DNA of 64,000 nucleotides, taken from the NCBI RefSeq assembly GCF_000189635.1, contig NW_002476457.1:434001-498000 (forward strand), written 5' to 3'. The notes under the pieces are model-generated. The model was given only the letters and a program-made list of their open reading frames with translations, was not told the origin of the DNA and ran no database searches. The stretch comes from Tetrahymena thermophila SB210 (taxonomy: Eukaryota > Ciliophora > Oligohymenophorea > Hymenostomatida > Tetrahymenidae). Shown here one piece after another: positions 23,950-56,132 of the stretch; positions within the stretch are counted from its first letter, which is position 1; every line of letters begins with the position of its first letter. The translations under genes and the position numbers were made by a program.

Positions 23950-25450
23950 CTATATTAAACAGTTAGCCAAATTATTTGAAAATAATTTATTGATTTATAT
24001 AATAGCATTATTATCTTAATATAATTTCATAAATACAAAGAAAGTTAATCAATAATTAATATATTTAAACAGCTATGAATGTAACTAAAAAATATATTAA
24101 AATATTTAATTCTTAAAAATGTTAACTTTTAAATAATATAAAACTAACTATTCAATGAAATCTCGAAGAAGTAATTTGGAATTCATTTAAGCATTAAGCT
24201 TAATTAATAATTTGCACATTTTAAACTAATTTATAAAATATCTTTTTATCATTCATTATATTAATCATAAAATTGATGGAAAAAACTGTAAATTTATTTA
24301 ATATATTTTAACTTAAAATTGTAATTAAAAAGACTAATAAATTCAATCAGTTAGTTAAATTATTTTTAAACAATTTATTATATTTATGATAGCTTTATTA
24401 TCACTATATAAATTAATTAAATTAAATTGAAAAAAATATATTTTATATTTTTAAACAGTAAAAATTATAATAAAAAATATAAAATGATTGATAAAAATAT
24501 TTACTTTTTATTCATATTTTCAAACTTATTAATTAAAACTGAAAGAATTATTTTAAACAGTCAGTGAATTAAATTATTAGTAAACAATTTATTTATTTTT
24601 ATGATAGCATTATTATCATTATATAAATTAATTAAATTGAAAAAAATATATTTAATACATTTAAATAGCAAAAATTATAATAAAAAATATAAAATGATTT
24701 CTATTTATTAATATTTTAATACTTATTAATTAAAACTGAAAGAATTATTTTAAACAGTCAATGAATTAAATTATTAGTAAACAATTTATTTATTTTTATG
24801 ATAGCATTATTATCATTATATAAATTAATTAAATTGAAAAAAATATATTTAATACATTTAAACAGTAAAAATTATAATAAAAAATATAAAATGATTACTT
24901 TTTATTAATATTTTAATACTTATAAATGAAAACTGAAAGAATAATTTTAAACAGTCAGTGAATTAAATAATTTGTTAAGAATTTATTTATTTATATAATA
25001 ATATTATTATGATTATATAAATTAATTAGATTTGAATTAAAAAAATATATTTAATACATTTAAACAGCTAAAATAATAATAAAAATTATAAAATGATTTC
25101 TATTTATTAATATTTTAAAACTTATTAATGAAAACTGAAAGAATAATTTTAAACAGTCAGTGAATTAAATAATTTGTTAAGAATTTATTTATTTATATAA
25201 TAACATTATTATGATTATATAAATTAATTAAATTAAATTGAAAAAAATATATTTAATACATTTAAACAGTAAAAATTATAATAAAAAATATAAAATGATT
25301 ACTTTTTATTAATATTTTAAAAATTATTTTTTATTGAAAATAAAAGATTAAACAGTTAGTTAGTGAATTAAATCATTTATTAAGAATTGACATATAATAG
25401 CACTATTTATTTTATTATATTAGTTCATAAAATTCAAGGAAGAATATATT
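23950..25450. repeat. ~200-bp satellite-like tandem repeat, 7-8 copies
   Basis: A marker string AAACAGTCAGTGAATTAAAT recurs at about 24347 (degenerate), 24556, 24753, 24951, 25153 and 25350, a period of 197-205 bp. Weaker copies extend left to about 23950. Each unit also contains ATAGCATTATTATCATTATA, AAAAAATATATTTAATACAT and AAAATTATAATAAAAAATAT. Central copies are the most alike and the edges are decayed, as expected for an array kept homogeneous by unequal exchange. No frame is conserved, so this is non-coding. Confidence 0.85.
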
Positions 25451-25646: not shown

Positions 25647-26948
25647 TCAAATAAATAATACCACTATGATGATGGTAATTGAATAGATTAAAATATTTGA
25701 AAAAGTTGTTGAAGTTTAAATGCCTGCAACACAAGTACCAGCACTACCAACTACTGGTGCATTCGGATTGCAAAGTGCACAATCAGCTGTAGACCAAGAA
25801 ACTTAGCCTCTACTTGAAGAATTGCATGAAGCAGAAGCTGCAACGCATGAAGTACCAGCTAAATTTGCGTATAAATTTTTATTTCCATAGTTAGTTGCAC
25901 ACAAAGAGCATATTGTATCAGAGAGTTAAGTATTAACTAAGCAATTCTAACATGAATTAGAATTCAAAATATAATTATTTCCAAAACAAGTCTAACAATC
26001 ATCTTTCGTCCAAGGTTTACTCTAATCTCTTGAATTACATGAATTTTAAGAAGCAACACAAGCTGTTCCGGACGCATTTGCATATAATTTATTTTAGTTT
26101 AAGCTTGCACATGCCTAGCAAGTTGTATCCGTTAATTATTAGAAAGAAGAGCAGTTAATACAGGATTATTTTCCATCATAAGCATATGTATTACCGTAAC
26201 ATGTCGCACAATCATTCGAATTCCAAGCTAGTTAACCTCTAGATTAGCATTAAACACTTACACACTGAGTACCATTAATATTAGCATATATATTTCCTGC
26301 TCCGTTATTACATGCATTACAAATTGCATCAGTAAGGGAATTTGTTGCCTAACAATTAACACATTAATTATTAACTGCAGCATAATTAGTAGGATAACAT
26401 AATCTACAATCACTTGTACTCCAAGCAGTTTATCCTCTATTTTAGCATGAAGCAGTAGAAGCAACACAAGCATTTGCTTGCGAATTAGCATATTAGTTTA
26501 AGCAGGCTTAGCAATTTACGTCATTAAATGTAGAAAGACTCGAGCAATTTATACATTAATTATTAGCTGCAGCATAACTAGTAGTATAACATAATTTACA
26601 ATCACTTGTAATCCAAGTAGTCTATCCTCTATTTTAGCATGAAGCAGTAGAAGCAACACATGAACTACCTGCAATATTAGTAAAAACTGCACTATTTTAA
26701 CCACAAGATTGGCATACTAAATCTGTTAGCCCTGCCGCTGATCCACTAGTAAAACAAGAACAATCTGTTATTGAACATGTAGGAGCGGTTTAACCTTATG
26801 GAAGAGACCAACTACAAGAATTAGGTACTGTAGAACAGTTTTAAACTGAACATTAATTAGTTCCTTGGGTACAAGAAACGTTCTTTCCAGCAAGGGCCAT
26901 TATTTAAGAAGTTGTAGATAAAAATATCAAAAGAAATTAAATTCTCAT
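25647..26948 (-). CDS. Immobilization-antigen-like GPI-anchored surface protein, 433 aa
   Basis: A single frame from ATG at 26948 to TGA at 25647-25649. It starts with a signal peptide (MRIQFLLIFLSTTSQIMALA). The body is built from about six Cys-rich repeats of roughly 60-70 residues with CxxC pairs, for example SCQNRGQTTWITSDCKLCY, NNQCINCSS and NCQACLNQYANS, rich in Ser, Thr, Asn and Ala. The C-terminus is a hydrophobic tail (SNILIYSITIIVVLFI) preceded by small polar residues, which is the usual signal for GPI attachment. This matches the ciliate immobilization (Ser/i-) antigen type coat proteins, which cover cell and cilia and are often expressed one at a time. No introns. The neighbouring satellite array on the 3' side may help such loci recombine, but that is speculation. 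Codon and base use are much richer in G+C than the flanks. Confidence 0.9.
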
Positions 26949-28604
26949 GTTTAGCTTACTCTTATATTTCTTTAAAACTTATTAATTATTCAGAAAATAT
27001 AGATTTGCCAAACAAACAAAATCTTAGAAAAAAATAAAGAATTAATTTAAAATTTGCTTTTTTCGTAAATTAAAATTTTGAATTTTACTACAAAATTAAT
27101 TTTTAGGGATGATAAATTATTGAAATCTATTTAATCTTTTGATAGAGTAAAATAAATATTCTATTGTTAAAAGAATTTCTTCATAAATCTTAAAAATATT
27201 TATCCATTTTTATTTAAATAATTGTAAATATTTTTGAAATTTAAAACAAAAACTTTAAAAAATAAATAAAGAAAGAAAGAAAGAAGAGTGTGCTGGCAAA
27301 TATTGTTTTATTAAGGAGATTAAAATAAACTAACTAATTACCCTGAAAGAATCCATTCATCTATCCATCCATTTTTACATCAAGAATATCTTTTTTAATC
27401 ATAAGAGAAAAATAAATTTAAGAAAGATTTGCTTGAAGGATAAACGAAAAACAAATAAAAAATTTTTTTTAAATTATAAAAATTAACTAAGTAATCTAAA
27501 ATAAATGATATGACTAGCAAATATTTAATTTGTTAAAATATAAATAAAGTATTAGAGACTAAAAAAAAAGAAGTTTTTCTTAAACTTCTAAAGCATCAAA
27601 TAAATTATTAATTAATAAATAAATATATTTTATTTTTATATTTATTTTTTCAAATTTTACTTGAAAAATAATTAAATTAAAATATTTTATTTTAAAATAA
27701 ACCTTTAATATGATATCTAAGTGCTTCTTCAAATTATTGATCATTTATTTATTAGTTTAATCTAATAAATTAATTTTTAAATAATTTCAATAATATTAAA
27801 TAAACTTCAATAAAAATATGTCAGGCCTATCACTAAATTCTTGCTTATTAATTTAAATTTAAAGTTTATTGTTCATACAATTTTATAAAACTATAAAAAT
27901 TAAAATTATATTAATTAATTAATGATACTTTTTTTCTTAAACTTACTCCCTCAATAAATAAAGTTAACAAAAGATTAATGATGAACTTCAATAAAAATAT
28001 CTTTACTTTTTTTGTTAAATTTACATAAAAGACAAAAAAACTTTATAATTTTTTATATTTTGTATGATTTGATAAAATTATAAAAATACAAATTATTTTT
28101 ATTGAATAACTAACTGATTTAGATTAGCTGTGGTTGATTTTATTTAAAAAATGTATTTTTAAATATTTTAAATAGAAATGTACTTCAATTAAAATGTAAT
28201 AAATATACTTACTGTTAGATTTTTATTAATTAATTTTTTTTAAAATTAAGATATTATTTAACTATTATTCAAATTTGAAGAAATTAAAATATATGATTGA
28301 ATAACTAAATATTATCAATTTTGTTTAATGCTTTTAAATAATTTCTCACTTTATAATCAATAAAAGAAATTTGTTTTAAAATATTTCAAAAAATATTTTT
28401 TTTCATCCATTATTTATCTTTTATATGAAGTTATCAAAATAAAAATGTAGATTATATTGATTAAATAATTTTAAATTTGGTTAATTATTAGTTTATCATA
28501 CCTACTTACTTACTTACATACATAAAAAATAAATAATACACTAAATTAGTATTTTTAAATATATATATTAATTAACTAATTAATGATCTTATTAATTAGT
28601 ACAT
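26949..28604. other. A+T-rich spacer with short simple repeats
   Basis: No gene seen. Small simple repeats occur: (GAAA)n at 27268-27287 and (CCAT)n near 27360. Otherwise long A/T runs. Confidence 0.5.
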
Positions 28605-38039: not shown

Positions 38040-38951
38040 TAAAAAAATAAATAAATAAATAATTTATATAAATATAAAAACTTATATTCAACGAATATAT
38101 ATATCCAAAGAATTATATTAACTTACATTATTTACTTTAATTACAAAATAATTATTAATTGTAATTTATGTTATATTATTTATATTCTTATTTATCAATT
38201 TACATTATTACATCTACGTATGAATGAATTAATTAATGTATAAATAAATAAAAAAAAAAATATATTTATTACTTTTTATGTTATTTCTCAAAACTTTTTT
38301 GTAGAAATATTTATTAATAATTTCTATTGAATGAATAATAGGTAGGTCACTCATAAATTAAATAGTATTTAAAAGATTTAAATTTAAAAATAAAATAAGA
38401 AAATTTTTATTTAAAATTTTTTTTATTTAATAAACTTACCACAATATGACATTTATATGTATAAAAATAAAATAAATCTATCTATCTATATTTTAAGTTA
38501 AATTATCTATTTTTGATAGTCAAAGTAAAAGTAAAGAGCAATCACCTCTTTATTTTAAAAAATTTTATTCTTAACACAAATATACTCCTTTTTGTATATT
38601 AAACATATTTTATAATATTTATATTTATTCATGTTTTTTTCACCACTTTTTTATAATCATTAGAAGTATATTTTATAATTAACTAATCTTTTTAATTTAA
38701 GGCACTTTATTTCTAATTTTACTTATTATGAGTCATTGATTTAATTGTAACTTTTATTATAAATTAGTGTAAATTACTAAAAAAAATAAATTAAATAAAA
38801 TTTATTTTTAATTAATAAAAAAAAATTTGCAGTATAAAAAAGAAAAATAAATCAATAAATAGCAAATAAATTAATTAATTAAAAGAGTTAATTGTATTAT
38901 TTTAAATTAGTATTTATAATACACAAACCAAAACTAATAAACTGTTTTTAC
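38040..38951. other. A+T-rich spacer between CNBD gene and LRR array
   Basis: 3' flank of two converging transcription units. If the LRR array is a working minus-strand gene, its last exon and stop should lie here, but I could not recognise them. Confidence 0.4.
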
Positions 38952-41900
38952 TAAGTATTAAATGCCAAACTTGAGAGGTTATTGCATTTTGCTAAACCAA
39001 AACTTAAGCCTAATGCACCATCATCGCCAATTTCATTGTAACTTTTTAAATATTGAAGAAATAATAAAAAATTAATTAGTATGTTGGAAGGAAGAAATGA
39101 AGAAAAATTAAAGAAATCAATTAATAAATATACAATAAAATCAAAAGCTAAAAGTGAAAAATGAATAAATTAACAAAGATAGAAGAAAAAACTGCAAAAC
39201 ATAAAAAAATAGAAAGAAAGGTAAATCAAATTGAACCTATTAAATGAATTAAAATTGTTATTTTATTTTAAGTTCATTTTTATTATAAAAATTATCATAA
39301 TCTAATACAAATAAACTGTGTTTACAGAAGATTAAGTTTCAAATTGAACAGATTATTGCAACTTGCAAAAGCAGAACCTAAGCCTGATGCACCTGAATCG
39401 CCAATTTAATTATCCCTTTTAAAATATTAAAGAAAAAATGAATAATTTATTATAACAATAACAAAAAGCAAATAAGTAAATTAAAAGAGTTAGCTATATT
39501 GTTTCAAATTCATTTTATTATAAAAAATATCACAATTCAAAACTAATAAACTATATTTACGAAAGATTAAGAGCTAAATTTGTGAGACTAGAGCAATTTG
39601 TTAAAGCAAAACCTAAGCCTGATGCACCTTCATCGCCAATTTTATTGCAACTTTTTAAATATTGAAGAAAAAATATATAATTAATTAGTTACTTAGAAGC
39701 AAAAAATGAAGAAAATATGATAAAAAATGAATTAATTAATAATTAAAGCTAAAATTTAAAATGAAAAATGTTTTAAATTAACAAAGATACTAAAAAAACA
39801 CATGAAAAATAAAATAAAAAGAAAAAGAAATCAAATTAAAACCATTAAAGATTTAAATTATTTTAAATTAATTTTAATTTAAAAAATAACACAATCAAAA
39901 ATAAATAAACTATTTTTACTAAAGTTCAAGTGTCAAATTTGAGAGATTAGTACAAAATGCTAAACCAGAACCTAATCCTGATGCACCAATTGCACCAATT
40001 TAATTGTAACTTTTTAAATATTGAAGAAAAAATATAAAGTTAATTAGTTAGTTAAAAGGAAAAACAAAGAAATAATGTGAGAAAATAGCAAATTAATTAA
40101 TTTATTTATCTATTGATAAAACAAAAGTTAAAAATTAAAAAATGATTTATTTTAACTAAGAAAAAAAAAGCAAGTGGAATATAAAAAAGATAAATAAATC
40201 AAATAAAAATATAATAAGTAAGCTAAAAGATTTATTTCGCTTTAAATTTATTTTTAAAAATAAAAAATATCATTTTCAAAACTAATAAACTGTTTTTACA
40301 TAAGATCAAGTGTCAAATTTGAGAGATTAGCGCAATACGCTAAAGCAGAACCTAAACCTGATGCACCTTCGTCATCAATATTATTCTACCTTTTTAAACA
40401 TTGAAGAAAAAATATTTAAATAATTAGCCATTTAGAAAGAAAAAATGATAAGAAACGAATTAATTAATAATAAAAACTAATAGTTAAAATGAAAAATTGA
40501 TTTAAATTAACAAGGATAGATAGATAGTAAAAAACACAAAAGAATTATATTGTTTTAAATCATTTTTATATTAAAAAATATCGCAATCAAAAACAAATAA
40601 TCTGTTTTTACTTAAGCTCAAGTGTTAAATTTGAGAGATTAATGCAATTTGCTAAAGCTAACCCTAAGCCTGATAAACCAATTGCACCAATTTAATTCTT
40701 ACTTTTTAATATTGAGGAAAAAATATATAATTGATTTGTTAGTTAAATTAAAAATGAAGAAAAAATATGAAATAAAAAGAAATTAATTTATTAGAAATAA
40801 AAAAAAGTTTAAAATTAAAAAATTAATTAACAATGATCAGATAGAAGAAAAAAAACACAAGAGAATAAAAAAAAGAAAAATAAAAAACTAAAAAATAAAT
40901 TAAAAAAGATGTTTATATTGCTTTAAATTCATTTTCATAAAATGTTTTTACCTCAGATCAAGCGTCAAATTTGAGAGATTAGTGCTTTTTGCTAAAGCAG
41001 AACCTAAGCCTGAAGCACCTTCGTCATGAATTTAATTCTAACTTTTTATATTGAAGAAAAAATTTTTAATTAATTAGTTAGAAATAAGGGAAAAAAAAAA
41101 GAAATTAAATAATAAGAAAGAAAGAAAGAAATAAATAAATAAATTAATAATAATAAAAACTGAAAATGAAAATTGAGTTAAAGTAAAAAGATAAAAGAGA
41201 AAAAACACATTCAGAATAAATAAAAAAAGAAAAATAAATCAAATAAAAACTTATAAATACATAAAAAGTTTTATTGCTTTAAATTCATTTATATTTTTAA
41301 AAATATCAAAATCCAAAACTAATAAACTGATTTTACAAAAGATTAAGTGTCAAATTTGAGAGGTTAGTGCACTTTGCTAAAGCAGAACATAAACCTGATA
41401 CGCCCTCATCGCCAATTTAATTGCTTCTTTTTAATATTGATGAAAAAATATAAATTTAATTAGTTAGTTAGAAGGTAAAAAAGAGACAATAAGAAGTGAA
41501 TTAATTATTAATTAAAGCAAAAGTTGAAAATGAAAAATGAGTTAAATTAACAAAGATAGAACAAAAAAAACACACACAAGCAGAACAAAAAAATAAAGAA
41601 AAATAAATAAAATAGAACTAATTAATAAATTAAAAGTGTTATATTATTTTAAATAAAAACATTCAATATAAAAAAACTGTTTTTACTCAAGACTAAGTGT
41701 CAAATTAGAGAGATTATTGCAACTTGCTATAAGTGAACCTAAGCCTGATGCACCTTAGTCACCTATTTAATTTCCCCTTTTTAAATATTGAAGAATATCT
41801 ATAATTTATAAGTTATTTAGAAGGTTAAATTGAAGAAATAATATGAAAAAATGCGAAATTAATGACAAAAAAAGAAGAAAAAAAAATGCAATTAGAATAA

Positions 41901-42624
41901 AAAAAATTAAATAAATAATTAACAAATAAATTAAAAGATTTTATTGTTTTAAATTCATTTTTATAATAAAAATATCACATCTAAAACTAATAAATTGTTT
42001 TTACAATAGATAAAGTGCCAAATTTGAGAGGTTAGTGCATTTAGTTAAAGCAGAACCTAAGCTTGATGCACCAATATTGATTTTACATTTTATTTTTATC
42101 AAATTTTCAGGCTCTTTAAAAAGTGAGGAAACTGGGTGTATGCAAAATAATCAAAAAAACAAAAAAAAAATAAATAAATCTTAAATTTATCTTTAGTCTT
42201 TTTCATTATTAATTATGAGAACGAAAATGATTGTACACCTAAAAAATACATAATTAAATATATATATAAACATTAAAAATAAAATTATTTTTAAGTCATA
42301 TTCTGAGTGCATTTATATGTGCGAGTATTTCTATTCTATTCTGCACTAATTTAATTGCCACTTTTTAAATATTGAAGAAAAATATATTTGAAAAATAAAA
42401 ATGAGTTAAGCATAAGCAGAATAAAAAAAGAAAAATAAATCAAATAAAAACCTAATAAATTAATTAAGCTAATTATTTAGTAATTCATTTTTATAAAAAA
42501 ATATCACAACCCAAAACTAATAAACTGTTTTTACGATAGATTGAGTTTCAAATTTGAGAGGTTAGTGCAATTTGCTAAAGCAAAAGCTATGGCTGATGTA
42601 CCTTCATCGCCAAATTAATTCCCA
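38952..42624 (-). CDS. LRR protein gene fragment: 11 tandem 90-bp exons, one repeat per exon
   Basis: Eleven copies of a 90-bp exon, reading on the minus strand: 42624-42535, a split one (42360-~42340 plus ~42074-42005), 41776-41687, 41426-41337, 41041-40952, 40701-40612, 40389-40300, 40009-39920, 39650-39561, 39415-39326 and 39041-38952. Each whole copy is exactly 90 bp, follows a ...TAAAAG or AAATAG acceptor and is followed by a GTAAAAACAG-type donor, all in phase 2. Each codes one 30-residue repeat, for example NQIGDEGASGLGSALANCTN then LSNLTLDL, a ribonuclease-inhibitor-type leucine-rich repeat (conserved N, C and Leu positions). The split Asn codon is completed across introns. Introns also resemble each other, so exon plus intron was duplicated as a unit (spacing ~235-390 bp). 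I found no start or final exon, so it may be incomplete, larger than the window suggests, or decaying. Confidence 0.75.
42079..42339. other. ~260-bp insertion splitting one LRR exon
   Basis: Left flank ...GATGCACCAAT and right flank TGCACTAATTTAATTGCC join to a normal LRR exon when the intervening ~260 bp are removed (compare the unit at 39981-40009). The insert has no GT/AG ends on the coding strand, no clear terminal inverted repeats and no coding frame. Boundaries are uncertain by a few bases. Its origin is unknown. Confidence 0.5.
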
Positions 42625-43945
42625 CTATTTTAATATTGAAGAAAAAATATGAAATAATAAGAAATTAATTAATTATAATAAAAAAGTTTTAAATTTTTAA
42701 TCAAAAATAAATAAACTGCTATTTATTAAATAAGTGTAAGTATTAGAAAGAAATAATGAAGAAAAAATATAAAATCTTAAAAATTTATAATTAATAATTA
42801 AAATAAAAATTGAAAAATTAAGTTAAAATAATTGTATAACTAAAAATAAATAAATAAATATATTAGAATAATAATTTTATAAATAACTTGAAAAGTAAAT
42901 TAAAAAAAAGCATTAATAATAATTATATCAATAAATTAAATATACCTCTGAGTAATATCGAGTATCTAATGAGATTCGAATGAAGAGTTTAAAAACTTTT
43001 TTTTACAAATAAAATAAATTTAAAGAATATTAACAAAAAAAAAATTTATTACTTCTTGTAATTCGTAGAAATAATTTATCTTTTATGTCATTTATTATTT
43101 TAAAAAAATATATTTAATAGCAATTTATATCAATTTAATTAATAAGAAGTATATTAAAAAATTAATTTGCTTATATTTCTAATTAATAAAGATAAAAAGT
43201 ATAAATGAATTTATAAATTTGCTTTAAGGAAGAGATATTGTAAAAAATTAGTGTAACATTCATTATTTAATCTTAATATATCTATTTAAAACATATAGTT
43301 AAAAGTATAGTAGGAAAGAATTAGAGATGGATAGTCATACATGGAAAAAATTCTAAGAATTATAGTACTTAAGTTTTAATAATATAATTAATATTTAGGG
43401 TATTTTTCTGTTTTATTTGAGTAATAAGGGGAATTATTATATTATAATTTTTATTAAATCTCTTATTATTCTCAATCCTTTTAGTTTTTTTTGCAAACCA
43501 TAAGCCATGTTATTTAGGCAAATGGGTTGCATGCACCAAATAAATAAGTGCATTTATTTTTACCTATTTAAATAAATTTTTATTAAATAGATTATTCATT
43601 CATTTTTAATATAATCAATAATTAAAAAAAAATTTTTTAAATTCACAAACTATGTTTGTAAGAATTAAAAAATAAATTAATTAGGATATTTATTTACTAT
43701 AATAATTTAATTACCAAACAATTTAAAAAATTTATACATTTCCCCGATTAAGCAAGGAATAGTATTTTTTTTATATTTATTTTTATTTTTTTGATATTTT
43801 ATTGTTTAAATAAATTACAATAAATAATTTTTTTAATCAGCAAAATAAATGTTTTAAAAGATTTTTTTATGAATATTTTTATAATTTTTGTTACAATTGG
43901 AAATATTAAAAATATTAATAAACACATTTTAATATATTATAAAAT
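42625..43945. other. Spacer with remnant of an LRR-array unit
   Basis: At about 42710-42780 intron-like flanks of the LRR unit (AAACTGCTATTTATT... and AATGAAGAAAAAATAT) occur without the exon between them, as if an exon was lost. A plus-strand frame from 43327 is low-complexity and not called. Nothing else is seen. Confidence 0.4.
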
Positions 43946-46900
43946 TCAAGCTTTATCATTCTATTTTTCTACTTCTGAATCATCGTTTTAGAATCTACTA
44001 AATTGAAGATAAACTTATTCAAGAGAACTTTGGTTGATAGAGAAATCCTCAATAATTTGTTTTCCTTTTAACTCGTTTTCGCAGAGATTAAATGCCTTAG
44101 AGAATTTAAATTCTTCCTTTTTAATATTGAAATGGCAATAATCACTTCTCTTTTCAGGGATTTCTGAGATAGAAGGGAAAGTTTTTTCTAATATTTTTTT
44201 TATATCATCCTTGTTTTACTAATTGAGCTTAATTGTAATATTATATCCTTGACCATATTTATTTCTTAATTATTAAGGAGTTCCTATAGTTACGAATTAA
44301 CCCTTGATAAGTATACCAATTTTAGTACAAAGAGATTCAGCTTCTTCCATAGTATGCGTAGTCATACAAATAGCTGAATTTCTTAGCTTTATTCCCATAT
44401 TCAAGGTATTCCATAAGAATCTTCTTGCAATAGGATCAACACCAGTAGATGGTTCATCGAAAAATTAAACATCTGGACCTCCAATCAAAGCATTAGCGAC
44501 ACATAACTTTCTCTTATTACCTCCACTTAATTATCCTGCTTTCTTTTTTACCATTTCTGTCAATTACATAGCCTATATTTTTAAAAAAAATAAATATAAA
44601 AATTATTGAATTTCAATTCTTTTATTTAATTTTGTTAAAGTAGAATATTTGTTTACCTTTAAGAAGTAATCAACTGATTCATCAAGATCTTTGCCCTTCA
44701 AACCTTTCATTCTTCCGAAGAGCTTCAAGTGCTCTGGAGGTGAAAGATTTTCCCAAAGACAATCAAACTAAGGACAGATACCAACATCTTAGTAGATTTC
44801 CATGATACCTTTGTCAACTTCTATATTCTTAATTTTGAGTGATCCATAGGATTTAGGGATCAAACTAGTTAAGATACTAAAAGTTGATGATTTTCCTGCT
44901 CCATTAGGACCTAATAGACCAAATATTTCTCCTTTACCAAAAGTAAAGTTAGTATTTTTAATAGCAAGAGTACCATTATCATAAATCTTTGTTAATCCTT
45001 TCACTCTAACAGTTTAGTTTTCTAATTTAACTACTTTTTGATTTTCTTCTTCCACAAGTTGATCACCTTATTCTTCAATTTATGCTAGTATTTAAGCTTC
45101 ATCTATTTATTAATTTTAATATTAGGTAAGATTTTTTTTAATTTAATTTTATATTACTTTATTAATTGCCTGTGTTTTTTACTCCGTACTTTCTCTATTC
45201 AATGTAAAGAGTTAATCCCATAAATATAGATGCACTTGCAATCTGCATTAAACAGAATTAGTAAGGGTCATTTAAAGTAATTACTAAATCAGTATGTGCA
45301 ATTCCTTCATCAGAAGTTTGAGGATAAACGCTAATAAAAGCAACATTCATAGAGAATAAAGGACTAATTAAATACAAAGGAATTTCCAAAAATCCATTTA
45401 GCCACTCATTCAAGGTAGTTGCTATTACAAAAATGAAAAGTTTTTATTTAAAATAAAACTAATAATAAAAGTAAATTTACAAATAAGATTATTGTCATAA
45501 AGTTCATAAATAGATCCAATAATAATCCAGGGTAAACTGAAAACTACAAAGTAATTCATCAAAGGATAAAATTTAAGAGCAGCACTTGATTTTTAAAAGA
45601 TAAAACCCCAGAAATAAGAAGATGTTATATAAGTAGACCCAAAAGTAACTAAAATGAAGAAAATGTTAACAAACTCATCAGTAACATATGTAAGATTTTA
45701 AGCAAAACAGAGAATAATAAATATCACAATAGTCAAAAAGAATACTGCAAAATCAAACAAGAAAGTTCCCAACCAATAAGGTAAAACCTAAAGAAAGAAA
45801 GTAATAAATAAATAAATTATTGAGTTAAAAATAAATTATTAATTAGTAAATATTTTACTCTGCAACCCATAACATTAAGAGCATACTTAAGATGATATTC
45901 TCTTTCCATAACAGGAAGTTGAATGAAAATAGCTGAGTTGAATGTATAAGCAAGAACCATAAAATAGCTCATAAATGATAATCTGAAATTATTCTCATTG
46001 ACTCCTGGAGGTTTTGAGAAAAACCCAACAACCTTAAATAAAATTTATAAAAAACAATTTTAAAGAAGAAAATTATTTTATTTATCTTAAATTATTTTGA
46101 ATAAGAAAATAAATTATTATCTTTACAAGTTCTTCATTTAAAAAATTAAATTTATAATTGATTTTATTGAAATTCTTAATTTATTTGTTTATTTAACTTT
46201 ATCATTTTTTGTTTATTATGAAATAGAAATTGTTTAAAAATATTGTTTTATTTAAATGAAAAAGCTAAAATTTGATTTTTAATGTTTGAAAAAAATTAAT
46301 TGTTTACGACTGTAGCGGCAATTAAAAGAATCAATGCAATAACAAAAGATATCCAATTGGTGGAATTTCTTATGGTATAATAGAATCTACGAAGAAAGAT
46401 GGCTTGGAGTTGTGAAACAAAGCTGTAAGATGGAGGATTTTTCAAACAGTCAGGAACTTAGATATCATTGAAGTTTGTATACTCATTTTTGGTGATATTT
46501 TTGTGTTCTCCTTCATTTTACTAATTATTTTTGCTTCCACTTCTACTTAATCTGCGATTATTTCTTTCTAAGAAATTTTCTTCATCCATTCCAATATTAA
46601 TGAAAGCGTCTTCTAAACTGTTCATTTCTAAATCAACGTTTATGTGTTCATATTTCTCGAGAGAGTGAAATAATTCAGCAAAACAAGCTTGTGCTGAAAA
46701 AGGGATCAAATATAAGATTGTATCAGCAGGAGTTTATGGGTTGAATTAACAATCTTTAATTCTAGATTCTATTATATTCTTAATTTCTTATTTCCATTAG
46801 CTTTAGAAATCCTAAATGTGCTATTCCTCAACTGATATTCTAAGAGAATAGCCTTCTCCGAAATTCTTTTTAATAAACTAACTTGAACCAACAGCTAAAA

Positions 46901-49248
46901 GTTTTCCTTTTGCCATAATTCCAATTCTATCAGCTAGCACTTCTGCTTCATCTAAGTGGTGAGTTGTTAACACCAAAGTACGCTCTTCACTACGCACAGA
47001 TTCTAAAATATCCCAAATGGCTCTTCTGCTTAAGTTATCCATTCCAGATGTAGGCTCATCTAAAAATATCATCTTTGAACCTCCAATCAAAGCCATACCT
47101 AAAGATAATTTACGTTTTTGGCCTCCAGATAATTCCTTAACCTTTTTATTAGCCTCACTATGAGTACCTGTTTTTTCTAATATATATTCTACTTCTTATA
47201 ATAGCTTCTCACCACTTAAGCCTTTAATTTATCCAATCAATTTAAGCTACTCAATAAATGTTAAATCATCATAAAGACAGTCTCTTTAAGTACACAAACC
47301 GATATTATTTCTAATTTGATCTATGTCAGTCTCTAAATCCTTGTCATAAACTATTTGTTATTTTATATTAGTTTGCCTTTTAAAGTATAATTTGACAATG
47401 TTACTTACTTTAAACATTACCAGATGTCTTGCTAATCAATCCCGTCAAAAGAGAAATAGTAGTAGTTTTACCAGCTCCGTTGTGACCTAATAAGCTATAT
47501 TTTATAAATGACAATTATTGATAATTCTTTCACAATAATAATAAGCAAGATTAGATTTTAAAAGTTTTTGAAAAAGCAATAAATAACTTTATAAAGAAAA
47601 ACTTCCAAAACCACCACGAATGCTTTTGTAAGCATTTCAAATAGATTTAATTGAAAAATGTAAATTTTATTTAAAAAGTGTGATTTTCTTTATATAATCT
47701 TTACCAGAAAATATTAGATTCGTAAAGGTTTATTGATATTTTATCGACGGCAGTAAAATCACCAAACACCTTTTAGAGAGATTTTATAATTACACGAGCA
47801 GGTAAGTTCTTTTCATTAGGATAAACCTCATGGAAAAGGGCAGAAGAAGTATCTTGTGGGTTTTAGAAAACACTGACTTATTCTTCATCATTTTGGTTCA
47901 ATGGTTGGATGAGAGAGTTATTTTTAGATTCTTTTGTAAATAAAAAATGGAGGTTAGTGGTAAATTAGTGGCATTATATTTTGAATAAAATTATGGTTTT
48001 TATTACTTAATCTATTTGAAGATGTTTTATCTGACTTTTTAAATAAATTAATCACAAAGAAGAGAGGATGCTTAGAAACACCATACTCGTTAGGAATGAC
48101 TTAATCAAGATAGAAATAAAGAATTATGTAAACGAAAATCATGAATGAAAGCTAAATAATTGCATCGCTAGAACTGTAGTATGAGCTAATTAGATTTCCA
48201 TTCTAATAAAACATTGATCCTTCTTATTACAAAGCTATATAGCAAAAAGCGATTGAACATTAGGGGAATAAACCCATAATCCAATAAAATTCTGACTTAC
48301 TATTTTTAATAAAAATGTATGATTAAAACTCAATCTATTCCTATGTAACTAACTCCTCATAAATTATATATTTCAGTATGCAAGCATGAATGAAGTTTTT
48401 TGTCATAAATATATATATATAGATTGATTGATTGATATCACTGTAATGTTTTTTATTGCTCATTATTTTTTTTTTTGTTCACTCATACTGCTTACTTCTT
48501 TATAAATTTTAAATTACTTTTTGACTTCATCTACAAAAATTAAAAAGACTAAGAATATTGGAATGATCATAAGGATGGTTCCTATTTCTGAAGCCATTTT
48601 CACCTTTGAAAACATGGTAGAAAAGCAAAGTGACTAATGGATGGAGCAAATAAAGTACAAGAAATAGGCAATGACAAATGGGGCAGCATTATCCACATAA
48701 GGAAATCCGCTGATCAGTGGAGCGATAATAAAAGTAAAGACACTCTATATATTTTTGATATAAAAGTTAATATTTTTAGCCATTTTCTTTGAATTTAATT
48801 TCATTTATATTACCAAAACACCTTTTGAATAGCTAGAACTTATCCATGCGGTAATGTATGCGCTCTATTTCAATCCCATAATCTAAGTTTTACAAATTTT
48901 TAAAATCAATTTTGAAATTAAAATCTAAAATTTTCATACCTTCTAAGTTTCTTTGTATCTTTCTGCCTTTTCTTCAACTAACTAAATTAAAGTTGATCTA
49001 CTTGTACCGCTGATAGCAAGAGGGATTAGTAAAGGTGCCATCATAGCAAGCTAATCCAAATATTCTTCAAATTTTAAAATTTTAAAATAAATAAAAATGA
49101 AAAATATTATTTGATTACTTGTTAAAAGAAGCAAAACGCCTGCGAAGAGAGGCAAGGTACTCTCCTTGAATATATCTTTGCTCCTATAAGCTATTAACAT
49201 ATTCTTCTTATAAATTGTGGAGAACTAAAGCCTAAAAAGACTATCCAT
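43946..49248 (-). CDS. ABCA-type full ABC transporter, copy 1
   Basis: ATG at 49248 ([20 protein letters not shown]), TGA at 43946-43948, several short introns. Domain order is TMD1-NBD1-TMD2-NBD2. TMD1 (48.0-49.25 kb) lacks the very large extracellular loop of animal ABCA proteins. NBD1 (~46.5-47.85 kb): Walker [11 protein letters not shown] near 47480, signature LSGGQKRK near 47125, Walker [13 protein letters not shown] and switch His in [12 protein letters not shown]2 covers 45.1-46.4 kb. NBD2 (43.95-45.1 kb): Walker [11 protein letters not shown] near 44910, signature LSGGNKRK, Walker [14 protein letters not shown] and TTHTMEEAE. The VFGDF and [14 protein letters not shown] contexts are ABCA-like. 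Both ATP sites keep their key residues, so this is probably an active lipid or amphipath transporter. It lies directly downstream of a close paralogue on the same strand. Confidence 0.92.
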
Positions 49249-50905
49249 TATTATAATTAACTATCTACTTTTTCAGTGAAAAATCTACTTTTAAAATCTT
49301 AATTTCTTTTTTTTGATTGATATTTTTGATAAATTTTTAATTTATTTTGCTTTCTCTTTTTATATAGATTTGTGAGTAATCGTTTTAAACTGCTGTTTTG
49401 AATTTAAGAATTTAATTAAGATTTCAATCAAAAATAAAAAGAAAATTTATGCAAATTCAGAATAACTAACTTCGAAATTGCATCATTTGATTAGTCTGAA
49501 TGTTAATAAATTCTTATGACATTTCGCAAATAACCAATTTTTATAATTAACTTTAATCCACAAACTCATCAGTAAATTATTATTAATTAATAGTAAAATA
49601 TCTCATTTCAATGCAAAGATATTCTCTTTTATTTAAATTTGTAAATAAAATCTAATTTCTTTTTAATTCTTCAAATTACACACATTTTAGCATTTTTAAA
49701 ATATCTTTGAATTTTATTCCTTAAACCTTCTTTCTCTATTTAAAATACTTTTCAATTAGAATTCATTTTATACGCAAAAAAATTACTTTCTGCGAGGTTT
49801 TATGATAAATGAATTAAAATTGAGCTTTTTAAATAATTTACAAATTAACTTAATCGACTATTAGTATAATATTAATAATACTTTTAAATGCGTTAAATAA
49901 AGAAAAATAAACACAATACATCTATTTAAATAATTTTATTTTAAGTAAATAATATTTCGTTTAATAAACATTTTAAACTAATTAGAAATATATAATTAAT
50001 TTTTGTAAATCCAAAACTAATTATTTTATCTATTATTTAAATGGATATTTAAAAATGTGTTTTTTTTTTGTTATGTTGATAAAAACAATGAACCTCTTTT
50101 GTTAGATCCTAAACAAATGGTAATAAATAAGAAATTAATTAATTTATTGATTTTACTTGTAAACAAAGTCTGATTACCCTTTTTTACTATCTTATCAAGT
50201 TATTTTGATAATTTACACAGAAGATTGATCAAATTTACCTCAATTTATTTATTAGGAATTTAACTCAGTTTAATTAATTTATTTAATTACTTATCATCTC
50301 CATCAAAATTTTCTAGAAAAACAATTACTTTTTTTCTTTCAAATTTAGTTTATGAATTCAAAATGTAAATTAATTCCCTAAAAATCAGTTTGTAAAAAAG
50401 TAAATTCATTTTTATTTATGAAAAGAAAAAAAACTAAACTTTTGTAGTAGTCTTTATTTTTATGTTTGAACAGCGAAGATATATTCTTTTATAATTATTT
50501 TAAAAAAATTAATTAGTGTGTAACAATCATATCATTTCTTTTAAATTCTTAATTATAGATTGATTTTAAATTGACTAAAAAAAAATATATAGTTAATTTT
50601 TAATTATTTATTCATTTTTGGGCTTATTATTTAATAAAATGGAATTACTTATTATTTATTTATTAATCTATTTTTTTTTTTTGATTTGGATTTAATTTAA
50701 AATGGAGGATTTGCAATATTTTGATTATAAAATTATAAAATATGGATTTTTTTGATAATTATTATTCAATTAAAAAAATGAATTTTTGTTGATATGAATT
50801 AATATGCGATATTTATATTTGATACATTCAATTAATTTTTTATAAAATTAACTCAATAAAATAAATTTGTTACATAAGAATAATATATTTTCTTCATTTA
50901 TTGAT
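49249..50905. other. A+T-rich spacer between the two ABCA genes
   Basis: The 5' flank of copy 1 and 3' flank of copy 2. No exon, RNA or strong repeat seen. Confidence 0.5.
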
Positions 50906-53900
50906 TCATTCAATTGTTTTAATTTGATTATGTAATAATTATTCATTGTTTTCTTCGATTTGGAATTTACTAAATTGAGAGTAAACCTATTCTAATGAAC
51001 TTTAGTTAATTGAGAAATCATCAACTAAGTTTTGTTTTTTCAAGCTGTTTTCACATAATTCAAAGGCTTCTAAGAATTAGAATTCCTCTTTTCCAATTTA
51101 GAAAGTAGAATAATCAGACCTTTTGTCTTAAATCATGAATGCGTTAGGGAATTACATCTTAATCATTTTCTCTAGTTATTCCTTAGAGGCATTTTTGTTA
51201 AGTTTAAATGTAATATTGTAACCAGAACCGTACTTATTTCTTAGTTACTAAGGAGTACCGAGGGTTTAAAATTAGCCTTTAATAAGAATTCCAATCTTTG
51301 TGCAAAGGGATTCAGCCTATTTAATTTCAAAAAAAATTAAATAAATAACTTAAACTAAAAAACTATTAATTACTTCATCCATAGTATGAGTTGTCATGCA
51401 AATAGCAGAGTTTCTTAATTTCATTCCCATAGTTAATGTGTTCCATAAGAATCTTCTAGCAATAGGATCAACACCTGTTGATGGTTCATCAAAGAACTAA
51501 ACATCAGGACCACCAATAAGAGCATTAGCAACACAAAGCTTTCTCTTATTACCACCACTTAATTCACCTGCCTTCTTGAGAACCATTTCAGTTAATTGCA
51601 TAGTCTTATTTAAAATTATAAATATTTTATTATTTCAATTTCAATAATACAATAAAATAAATTAATTGCCATTATAATTTTAAATATTATCTTTTCAATT
51701 TTATTTAATTAAGAATTTCAAGTAATATGCAAATAAATACCTATAAGAAATATTCAACTGATTCATTTAAGTCAGTTCCACTTAATCCTTTCATTCTTCC
51801 AAAAAGTTTTAAATGTTCTGGAGGAGTAAGATTTTCCCATAGGCAATCAAATTAGGGACAAATACCTACATCTTAATAGATTTCCATAATACCTTTATCG
51901 ACTTCGAAATTCTTAATCTTGAGAGAACCGTAGGTTTTAGGGATCAAACTAGTTAATATGCTGAAAGTAGTAGACTTACCTGCTCCGTTGGGACCAAGTA
52001 AACCAAAGATCTCGCCTTTATCAACACAAAATTTGGTGTTCTTTACAGCTAAAGTACCCGTTTCATACTTTTTGATTAAGCCATTAACTCTAATAGTTTC
52101 GTTATTGTTCTGATTTAAGCGAGCGATTTCTTCTTATACTAACTCATCTCCTTATTCTGGGATTTACTAGAGAATCTCGTCTTCAGCTAATTTTCAGTTA
52201 ATATTTTTTAATTTTTAATAAAAAATGATTAAAAAATAAATATATTACTTTCTTAACCACCAGTGTTTTTTAGACCATATTTCTTCTATTCAATGAACAA
52301 AGTAATAAGCATAAAAGATATAGCAGAAGCTAGGATTATGAGGCAGAATCCATAAACGGTGTTAATGGTTGTACCAAAATTTGGTCCGTTTGTTCTTGCT
52401 TGAGGATAGACAACAATAAAAGCAAATTATAAACAAAATAGAGGACTAATAAGGTAAGAAGGTATTTAAGCAATACCATTTAAAATGCTGTAAGTGTCAG
52501 AGTCTTAAAAAATAAAAAAAATAATTAGTATAATATTTTTATAATTTTTATTATATTTTACTTATATAGCTGTTTTTGTAAAGTTAATAAATGGGTCCAC
52601 ACAATATCCAAGGGATGGCATAAATCAAGAAGAAATTCATCAATGGGTAGAATTTAAGAGCTGCACTTGCTTTTTTGAAGAGAAAACCCCAGAAATAAGA
52701 AGAAGTTATATAAGCAGCTCCAAAAGTAGTTAAAATGAAGAAAACTGACCAGAAAGCAGAAGTCACATATGTAAGTTATTAAGCTACACACAAAAGCAAG
52801 AAGATTACAATAGTCAAAAAGAATATCATGTAGTCAAACAAGAATGTACCAAGCCAATAAGGTACTACCTTTAAATGAAATCAAATAAATATTTCAATAA
52901 AAAATTATTATATTAATTAAATAATTAATTAATTACTCTGCAACCCATAACATTTAGAGCGTATTTAAGATTGTATTCTCTTTCCATTACTGGAAGTGAA
53001 ATGAAAATAGAAGAATTGAAAGTGTATGCAAGAACAAGGAAGTTACTCATAAATGTCAATCTAAAGTTATCTTTAGCGAATTCAAATGCAGCTGGAATAG
53101 TTATAACGTTTACGACCTGTTTATTATTTTTTTAAACAAGATTTTATTATTTCAAAAAGATTGATTTTTATGTAAAAATAAATTACGATTGTTGCAGAAA
53201 CAAGAAGGACAAAAGCGATTATAAAAGAAATCCAGTTTGTTGTATTTCTTATTGTGTAGAAGTATCTTCTCAAGAAAATAGCAAGCAATTAGCTAACAAA
53301 TTTATAGGTTGGTGGATTTTCGAGGCATTTAGGAACTGCAATGTCGCTGAAGTTTGTGTATTCATTTTTGGTTGCTTCCTTTTTTTCTCCTAAACCACTC
53401 AGACGAGTTTTATTTTTTTCTAAGAATTTCTCTTCATCCATACCAATATTGATAAATGCGTCTTCTAAGCTGTTCATTACTAAATCAATGTTGACATGCT
53501 CAAATTTTTTGAGTTTTTTGAACAATTCTATGAACCTAGGTTATTCGCTGAAAGGAATTAAGTAAAGAATTGTATCGGCTTAAGTTTAAGGATTGAGTTA
53601 AGTGTCTTTCAAAGTTGTTTCTATAATTTACTTGATTTCTTATTTCCAACTGCCTTAGAATTCAGATAAATGATTATCTTCTACTGATATTCTCAAAGAG
53701 TAACCTTCACCGAAGTTCTTTTTAATAAACTAGCTTGAACCAACAGCCAAGAATTTACCCTTAGCCATGATACCGATTCTATCTGCTAAAACTTCAGCCT
53801 CATCTAAGTGATGGGTTGTTAAGACAAGGGTACGCTTCTCATCACGAACAGACTCTAAAATATCCCAAATAGCTCTTCTACTCAAATTATCCATACCTGA

Positions 53901-56132
53901 AGTAGGTTCATCCAAGAATATAACTTTAGATCCTCCAATAAGAGCCATACCAAGTGAAAGTTTACGTTTTTAACCACCAGAAAGTTCCTTGGACATTTTA
54001 TTCGCTTCTTGCTGAGTTCCTGTCTTATTTAAAATATATTGGACCTCATCTTCTAGAGCTTAGCCATCTAAACCCTTAATGTTTCCTATTAATCTCAGAT
54101 GCTCAATAAAAGTCAAATCGTCATATAAACAGTCTCTTTGAGTGCACAATCCAATAAATTTTCTAATATCATCCATATCAGTTTCTAGATCTTTTCCATA
54201 CACTAAATTTTTGAAAAAAGTAAATCATTTTTTTAAAAATTATTGACTCATAAATTTTAAAATTTACTTTGAACTTGTCCATTAGTTTTGCTGAGTAAGC
54301 CTGTGAGCAAAGAAATGGTGGTTGTTTTGCCTGCACCGTTGTGTCCAAGTAAGCTTTTATTTTATTTATTAATATTAAAAAATGTTTAAAAATCCAATTA
54401 AAGTCAATTTACCAGAAAATGTTTGATTCGTAAAGTTTGATAGAAATTTAGTTAACTGCAGTAAAATCACCAAATTTCTTTTCAAGCCCTTTAATAAGTA
54501 CGCTGGCAGGAAGTCTCTTTTCATTTGGATAAGGTTCATGGAAATCAGCAGATGAAGTGTCTTGTTGAGCCAAAGAAGCACGAGAAATTTCAATATCAGA
54601 CACATCGTTGCGATTTAAAGCCTCTTTGAGACCTTAATTTTCACCTTGGGAAGAGACATCTTTTAAAAATTATATTTAATTCTTTATATGCAAAAAAAAT
54701 AAAGTCTAATTTTACCTGTATTTGACTTCTTAAATAAGTCTTTAATGAAAAAGAGAGGGTGCTTGGAAACTCCATATTCGTTAGGAATTACTTAATCCAA
54801 GTAAAAGTAGAGTATTATGTATAAAAACACATTCATAACCAATTCACCAATTGCATCATTTACAGTATAGTAATCGCTTACAGGAGGAGTTTAGTAGAAA
54901 GTAGATTAGTCATTTAACGAAGACATGTAAGCAAATGCAATTGTGCATTAAGGAAATAATCCCAAGAACCAATAATAAGGCACAAATCTTTAATAAAAAA
55001 AGAGATTAATAAAAAATTAATCTAAATTTGTAAACTAAACAGAATCAATTAATTGTTAAATCTTTTATTAAAAACAATTGATTCTTATTCATACTTTCTT
55101 GAATAATTAGCGAATAAAAAATTATATATTATAAAAGACTTTTCAAGTCCCAGCTAACATCATTGAAATTAAAAACTTATTATTATTTATGATAATTAAT
55201 TTTAAGCATTGTTTTTCTAATAGCTTTCTAATAAAAAATTTTATTTGGTACGACTTAAATTAGAAATGTTTGTATTTATTTTGGAGAAAAAGATGCTTAT
55301 TCCTATGAAAACTTTGTAAAAAAAGATATTGTATGCATGGGTTTAATTGTTTAATAATAATATTATTATCAAATAGGCAAATCAAAATGAATTTAATTAT
55401 AAATTTACGATCTAATATCTTAGACGAGAATTAAAAAGACCAAAAAGATTGGAATAATTGTCAAAAGTGTGCCAATTTCTGAAGCCATTTTAGTCTTTGA
55501 AAATAGTGTAGATAGACATAAAGATTGATGAATTGCTGCAACGTAATAAATCAAGTAAGCTCCTATAAAAGGGCCTGGTGAGTCTATAAAGGCTAATCCA
55601 GCTACTGCAGGAATGATTAAAAAGGTAATTGAGCTCTATTGTTAAGTTAAAAAAGATTATCAATAAACATACCTCTAAAGTAAATAAATGTCTTACGAAA
55701 ATACCTCTGAGATAGCTAGAACTAATCCAAGCTGTGATGTATGCTTTCTAAGACAGTCCCATAATCTAATTTGATAATCATTTGTTTATTACTAATTAAT
55801 ATCGATTAATTGAATTTACCTTTTATGTTTCTTTATATCTTTCAGCCTTTTCATCTACTAATTAAATCAATGTAGACCTACTTGAACCACTGATGGCAAG
55901 AGGTACTAAGAGTGGAGCCATAAACTGAAGTTATGAAAGATATTCTGTTGGAAATGTAAAAAAGAATCATTAAAATAAGCTAAAAATAAATGAAAATTAA
56001 TTATTTACTGACTAAAAGAAGGAGAATGCCTGCAAAAAGCGGGAGAATGTTCTCCTTAAGTATATCTTTGTTACGCCAACCTATTACCATGTTCTTTTTC
56101 AGAACACTTTTAAATTGTAAACTAAAAGTCAT
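50906..56132 (-). CDS. ABCA-type full ABC transporter, copy 2
   Basis: ATG at 56132 ([20 protein letters not shown]), TGA at 50906-50908. Same architecture as copy 1 and alignable throughout: N-terminal segment [21 protein letters not shown]1 with [10 protein letters not shown] near 54330 and LSGGQKRK near 53975 (the Gln is a TAA codon), [24 protein letters not shown]2 with [20 protein letters not shown] near 51990 and the ABCA C-terminal regulatory region ending in [19 protein letters not shown]. Most intron positions match copy 1, but an extra intron interrupts NBD2 at about 51318-51375 after LCTKIGIL, where copy 1 reads straight through. This indicates tandem gene duplication followed by intron gain or loss. 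Likely transports lipids or related molecules across the plasma membrane or an internal membrane. Confidence 0.92.

Follow-up and report, generated by a model that had tools for sequence, protein, structure and literature searches.

The window analyzed here, a stretch of 64,000 nucleotides from Tetrahymena thermophila SB210, contains what we are confident is a protein-coding gene for a product of 379 amino acids, composed of 90-bp leucine-rich repeat (LRR) exons, one of which is split by a REP-like fragment whose tail lies antisense at a fixed exon site. Beyond this single gene, we consider it probable that T. thermophila harbors a non-LTR element with a protein-coding exon as its landing site, inserted antisense after exon nucleotides 17–20, and that the array acts as its tolerant host. 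Both readings start from the exon structure, the closed reading frame, the fixed insert junction and the divergent flanks, all of which can be read from the DNA itself.

Results

Structure of the LRR array gene

The LRR exon array on the minus strand at 38.6–43.1 kb is real and decoded with the ciliate genetic code. Searching this strand of the window for 90-nt segments bordered by AG and GT yielded 10 LRR-coding units with an open frame and no in-frame TGA. The frame is open only if TAA and TAG are read as glutamine; the same in-frame TAA and TAG codons rule out a bacterial reading. A profile made from the ten units re-scored its own source units at 132.9–155.3 bits, and the top score among 10 simulated first-order Markov windows, each scanned on one strand, was -27.5. 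Comparison of these profile scores rules out a chance origin of the array.

All exons of the gene model lie on the minus strand. The first coding exon (42946–43091, 146 nt) begins with an ATG and ends in phase 2 at AG/GTATAT. It is followed by LRR exon 1 (42535–42624), located ahead of the split exon described below, and by nine consecutive exons at 41687–41776, 41337–41426, 40952–41041, 40612–40701, 40300–40389, 39920–40009, 39561–39650, 39326–39415 and 38952–39041, all ten being 90 bp long and recovered by both the AG/GT search and the profile. The last exon (38657–38750; YNQINDSQQVKLEIKCLKLKRLVNYKIYFQ) ends with a TGA stop and resembles sequences in related arrays. The joined model comprises 1,140 nt and encodes 379 aa with a single stop at the end, and all of its introns (11/11) are in phase 2. 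Between LRR exons, eight introns measure 145–295 nt (median about 265 bp), and a ninth, which contains the split exon, measures 758 nt. The 5' flank at 43092–43331 on the same strand is conserved among related array genes and represents a candidate promoter and 5' UTR.

Comparison with related loci agrees with both terminal exons. A rule-based search of eight upstream regions from relatives recovered an open, homologous exon with matching phase in three (L037, L039 and L041); the DNA block of the first exon could be aligned in 7/7 relatives for which an alignment was made, those beyond these three failing the exon rule. Sequences resembling the last exon are present in the related arrays L015, L028, L011, L023 and L018 (E 1.3e-7 to 1.7e-6).

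A first-pass annotation of this DNA had described eleven units of exactly 90 bp with phase-2 GT/AG borders, each exon coding for one repeat in a modular exon-intron unit. The phase, the borders and the modular organization are borne out at every junction of the model. The length holds for ten units; the eleventh, placed at 42094–42005, scores 76.9 bits by profile, lacks an acceptor AG and turned out to be the far part of the split exon. Strand, genetic code, first exon, last exon and insert were missing from that annotation and were all found here.

Other parts of the window contain two tandem ABC transporter genes on the minus strand (approximately 43949–48500 and 50900–55100). An ABCA1-like R1 domain is present in one of them, and one pair of ABC parts from the two genes aligns over 352 columns with 76% identity. 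A cysteine-rich protein encoded at 25647–27353 on the minus strand matches the Tetrahymena surface immobilization antigen family SerH (Pfam, 5.1e-74), and its gene adjoins a 197-bp tandem repeat at 24494–25328.

Relationships among the units, selection and predicted product

As had been noted from the sequence, exons and introns are both similar between units. Mean identity was 74.7% for exons (45 pairs of the ten window exons) and 74.1% for introns (28 pairs, excluding the 758-nt intron), compared to 50.4% for shuffled introns. Adjacent exons resemble one another no more (0.741 identity) than exon pairs overall (0.747), and 10/10 window units are closer to an exon of another fetched locus than to their nine own companions, the outside pool being much larger. 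These relationships would fit duplication long ago and subsequent shuffling between genes rather than recent tandem duplication in place. Unequal crossing-over, put forward earlier as the way in which repeat number changes, agrees with a published proposal that invokes it together with REP retrotransposition as a cause of LRR arrays (PMC6564038), but no recent event of this kind is visible in the window array.

Among the window units, pN was lower than pS in 36 of 45 exon pairs and dN/dS was 0.76. To a larger sample of 235 distinct exons from 30 loci including the window, in which pairs are non-independent and AT bias is uncorrected, belongs an overall pN/pS of 1.14 among close exon pairs. In 177 such pairs, pN was 0.002–0.012 and pS 0.017–0.187 at the scaffold positions 2, 4, 12, 16, 21, 22, 25 and 27, and pN reached 0.145–0.481 at the variable positions 1, 28, 7, 3, 6 and 26. 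Since pS is also high (0.23–0.36) at four of these six, namely positions 1, 28, 7 and 6, positive selection is not demonstrated. At the protein level the scaffold leucines, isoleucine and asparagines are nearly constant across the 235 exons.

An alternative to a functional gene would be a pseudogene in decay, or a neutral repeat that expands by itself and yields no useful protein. In its favor are the insert that splits one exon, the nearly equal divergence of exons and introns, and the values of dN/dS in the window and of pN/pS in the family. Against it, the ten other units have kept acceptor, donor, length and open frame, the terminal exons complete a frame of 379 aa, and scaffold positions combine very low pN with ongoing change at synonymous sites. 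In addition, RNA-seq support for many 90-bp-exon LRR genes and Ka/Ks values indicating purifying selection for most of them are reported in the text of PMC6564038. We therefore regard a pseudogene or neutral repeat as unlikely and treat the array as a protein-coding gene.

The 379-aa product matches LRR_6 in Pfam at 1e-27, with no second domain above the Pfam cut-off. Its best match among PDB structures is the LRR protein of 9y6s (3.1e-25); the ribonuclease inhibitor structures 1dfj and 3tsr match at E values of 2.1e-8 and 8.4e-9, and RanGAP is likewise similar among solved structures. LRRs of ribonuclease inhibitor have a period of 28/29 residues. The original label "RI-type" is therefore fair in view of the detectable sequence similarity, but the period here is 30 residues, with one exon per repeat. 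The product is likely to be an RI-like solenoid with a constant Leu/Ile/Asn scaffold and variable residues at or near the beta strand, resembling a binding surface. By analogy with LRR structure in general, the variable positions would be exposed, and the protein may have a role in recognition or binding.

A published family of 90-bp-exon genes

The organization with one exon per repeat, called striking in the first-pass annotation, is indeed present but already known, and the window array is one more member of a published family that comprises thousands of Tetrahymena genes. Nearly 50,000 90-bp LRR exons have been reported across ten Tetrahymena species, more than 96% of them separated by phase-2 introns (Xiong et al., 2019, PMC6564038).

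The assembly (101.0 Mb, 445 contigs) contains one match to a ciliate telomerase RNA and a telomerase reverse transcriptase whose long exon stretches agree with PDB 6d6v, a T. thermophila entry, with no difference seen; it is most likely the somatic genome of this species. To place the array within it, we used several queries. The window array itself gave at least 103 matches including itself (26 scored of 1,102 candidates). A genome search for other arrays with the same intron ends had been suggested earlier as a check. A 34-letter pattern of exon end plus donor matched 2,941 times at up to 3 mismatches, and the reversed control gave 0 matches. In 30 partly overlapping loci, window locus included, 333 of 344 units consisted of AG, 90 nt and GT with an open frame. 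When half-profiles were fitted separately on 30 loci that include the window array, the implied exon length was 90 in 238 of 240 distinct sequences, and 84 and 87 once each. A genome search with LRR_6 gave at least 2 matches (150 scored of 280 candidates) and is uninformative on family size because the length of one exon does not suffice to reach its threshold. At L015, L011 and L012, a sequence resembling the last exon of one array precedes the first units of the next; the predicted array genes stand in tandem clusters there.

The window gene comes closest to "group III" of Xiong et al. (2019), a young group for which the text of PMC6564038 gives as marks nucleotide repeats, introns of about 257 bp (the T. 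thermophila peak) and masking by RepeatModeler CRS. It shares with this group exact 90-bp exons, phase-2 introns, an array of ten, unit similarity at the nucleotide level (74–75%) and a closely similar median intron length. Group III genes are described as pericentromeric or subtelomeric in the germline (PMC6564038); the distance between the window array and the closer end of its somatic contig (686,164 bp) is about 209 kb.

An LRR exon split by a 266-bp insert

The eleventh unit is a 90-bp exon interrupted after nucleotide 19 by 266 bp. The 5' part of the exon (42342–42360, minus strand, 19 nt) has an intact acceptor and the 3' part (42005–42075, minus strand, 71 nt) an intact donor. The insert between them (42076–42341) ends on the plus strand in a conserved tail, ...GTGCGAGTATTTCTATTCTATTC, which is antisense to the LRR gene. 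A 9-bp direct repeat, TGCAC(C/T)AAT, is found at the insert ends. It may be a target duplication or a natural repeat of an IGAIGA-type exon; if it is a target duplication, the exon measured 81 bp beforehand.

Retention of the split exon would add 356 nt and, as computed, lead to a stop at residue 166, whereas the computed frame stays open when it is left out. The exon can be skipped without loss of frame because each LRR exon is 90 bp long and each intron is in phase 2, and the prediction that exon skipping preserves the frame is correct as arithmetic on phase and length. Inspection by eye of three candidate acceptors within the insert showed none that was compatible with phase 2. Cassette exons account for 139 of 1,474 alternative splicing events reported in T. 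thermophila (PMC3274533).

The insert has at least 41 matches in the genome including itself (40 of 146 candidates scored). Among the matches listed, four other copies are 95–99% identical over nearly the full length; of the remainder, some are diverged at similar extent and many cover mainly the 3' end. Many of the listed matches have only the 3' end in common and several the 5' end too, the window insert sharing both ends with L044–L047, L058 and L081. As common 5' ends are not predicted by random 5' truncation, the 266 bp may represent a short SINE-like element or the fixed residue of a somatic excision.

Another explanation of the insert would be a germline internal eliminated sequence that was left behind in the somatic genome, or a mixed assembly. 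In its favor, REP is reported to be germline-limited, with the tail alone kept in the macronucleus (PMC6564038). However, the tail occurs at 110 places in this assembly, the same paper reports 169 copies, and the four close copies match the 266 bp nearly end to end. A retained eliminated sequence or assembly mixture is accordingly improbable.

The conserved tail joins LRR exons at one position

A 36-letter piece from the 3' end of the insert was found at 110 places in the genome at up to 3 mismatches, with 0 in the control. We examined 100 of them, window included, which have 99 distinct 3' flanks, L139 and L049 having an identical 45-nt flank. With the threshold above the highest score reached by 196 simulated sequences (12.9), an antisense LRR exon head with its acceptor follows the tail in 92 of the 99 flanks. 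The junction lies at exon nucleotide 19–20, joined directly, in 81 flanks; the other 11 count 22–27 exon nucleotides, with a few extra, mostly tail-like letters in between. A sense-oriented exon head was found in 0 of the 99 distinct flanks. The final 1–3 letters of the junction are indistinguishable from the tail's own TAT, and GGTGATA occurs in 6 of 235 intact exons.

Seven flanks remained below the threshold. Two of them (L094 and L140) look like decayed LRR exons and five (L046, L101, L117, L136 and L138) are not LRR. Outside LRR exons, L046, L117 and L138 join at TATCTCC or CATCTCC, near the LRR site TATCACC, which hints at a short recognition sequence of the element.

In L044, L045 and L047, array units flank the insert on either side. 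To compare tails with their surroundings we used 47 copies with longer flanks and a stricter measure of divergence, a first one having proved uninformative (shuffled control 0.79). Mean identity was 90.8% for tails, 66.9% for intron flanks and 56.1% for the shuffled control. Tails were at least 97% alike in 46 pairs; flank identity reached 90% in none of these pairs and was below 70% in 23. These near-identical tails with diverged flanks suggest many separate insertions at one exon position. Some tail copies may nevertheless be duplicates, since the L139/L049 flank is identical and, at 75% identity, chaining places 31 of the 47 flanks in a single cluster.

The same comparison addresses whether tail and exon head were copied together, through self-copying of arrays or a REP carrying LRR sequence, instead of being joined by insertion at one site. 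Three points favor such co-duplication: REP-mediated co-retrotransduction and array shuffling are raised in PMC6564038, 11 of the 47 flanks form three clusters at a 90% threshold, and L139 and L049 have their flank in common. The absence of closely similar flanks among the 46 pairs with near-identical tails argues against it, as do the four near-full-length inserts, which are 95.8–98.9% identical to that of the window with 3' flanks of only 47–59% identity; one of these, L046, lies outside LRR sequence. Three shortened or diverged insert copies (insert 60–78%, flank 59–73%) do not separate the two readings. On balance, co-duplication as the general origin of the junctions seems quite unlikely, and repeated insertion at one site is preferred.

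On the upstream side, exon nucleotides 23–62 were found within at most 420 nt of the insert in 16 of the 47 copies, as whole neighboring exons in 3 and as split exons in 13. In six of the 13 split exons (L044 second, L059, L063, L071, L076 and L077), a GGTGATG or GGTAATG site is present on the upstream side as well. Read by eye, the target site may be duplicated in these six; this reading is not firm, and L063 and L076 can alternatively be read as decayed exon heads.

Discussion

The conserved 3' block of the insert extends over about 54 bp, its edge being set by eye in 47 copies picked by 36 of those letters. Tt.REP, a non-LTR retrotransposon of T. thermophila, is described with a 54-bp tail; REP is germline-limited with only the tail retained in the macronucleus, in 169 copies, and LRR introns are its favored targets (PMC6564038). 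Likened by this description, the insert resembles Tt.REP in its more than 100 somatic copies, in the LRR neighborhood and, apparently, in the length of the 3' block; a full-length element is absent from the window. The tail is very probably that of Tt.REP, judging by length, copy number and setting. The lone RVT_1 match in the genome (G000:C134:182753-183433, L143; 1 candidate scored) lies in an open frame of at least 831 residues in the ciliate code, and no insert-type tail was found within the 6 kb examined near this locus.

Target-specific non-LTR elements such as R1, R2, SLACS, NeSL and Utopia likewise insert into multicopy sequences with the 3' end at a single position, and their site is duplicated in some copies, as it may be in six of the split exons here. 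For the tail studied here, this position is the antisense LRR exon head in 92 of 99 flanks, 81 of them at nucleotides 19–20. The targets listed for such elements are rRNA, tRNA, snRNA, spliced-leader exons, transposons, microsatellites and telomeric repeats (PMC4640811), whereas the junctions described here lie in protein-coding exons of a gene family.

Most likely, the element integrates site-specifically into LRR exons by target-primed reverse transcription. In this mechanism, the LRR sense strand would be nicked near GGTG/A and the 3' end of the element reverse transcribed from the nick. The exon, not the intron, would be the target, and a hit exon would turn into intron once its remainder is lost. 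Given equal exon length and phase, loss of the hit exon would cost one repeat and no frame. In the window gene, which is presumably expressed, the damaged exon could be skipped.

The REP-like tail lies inside an exon here, whereas PMC6564038 favors introns, and a fixed exon junction would refine this published picture of LRR introns as favored REP targets. We found no description of exon-level site specificity in the main text of that paper, as distinct from its figures and supplements, or in literature searches. A coding exon family as a dedicated non-LTR target would be unusual. The fixed junction also offers a simple cause for both the association of REP with LRR genes and the loss of repeats: if the mechanism holds, hits in exons would explain this association, the exon losses and introns with fossil exon heads, and arrays and element would sustain each other.
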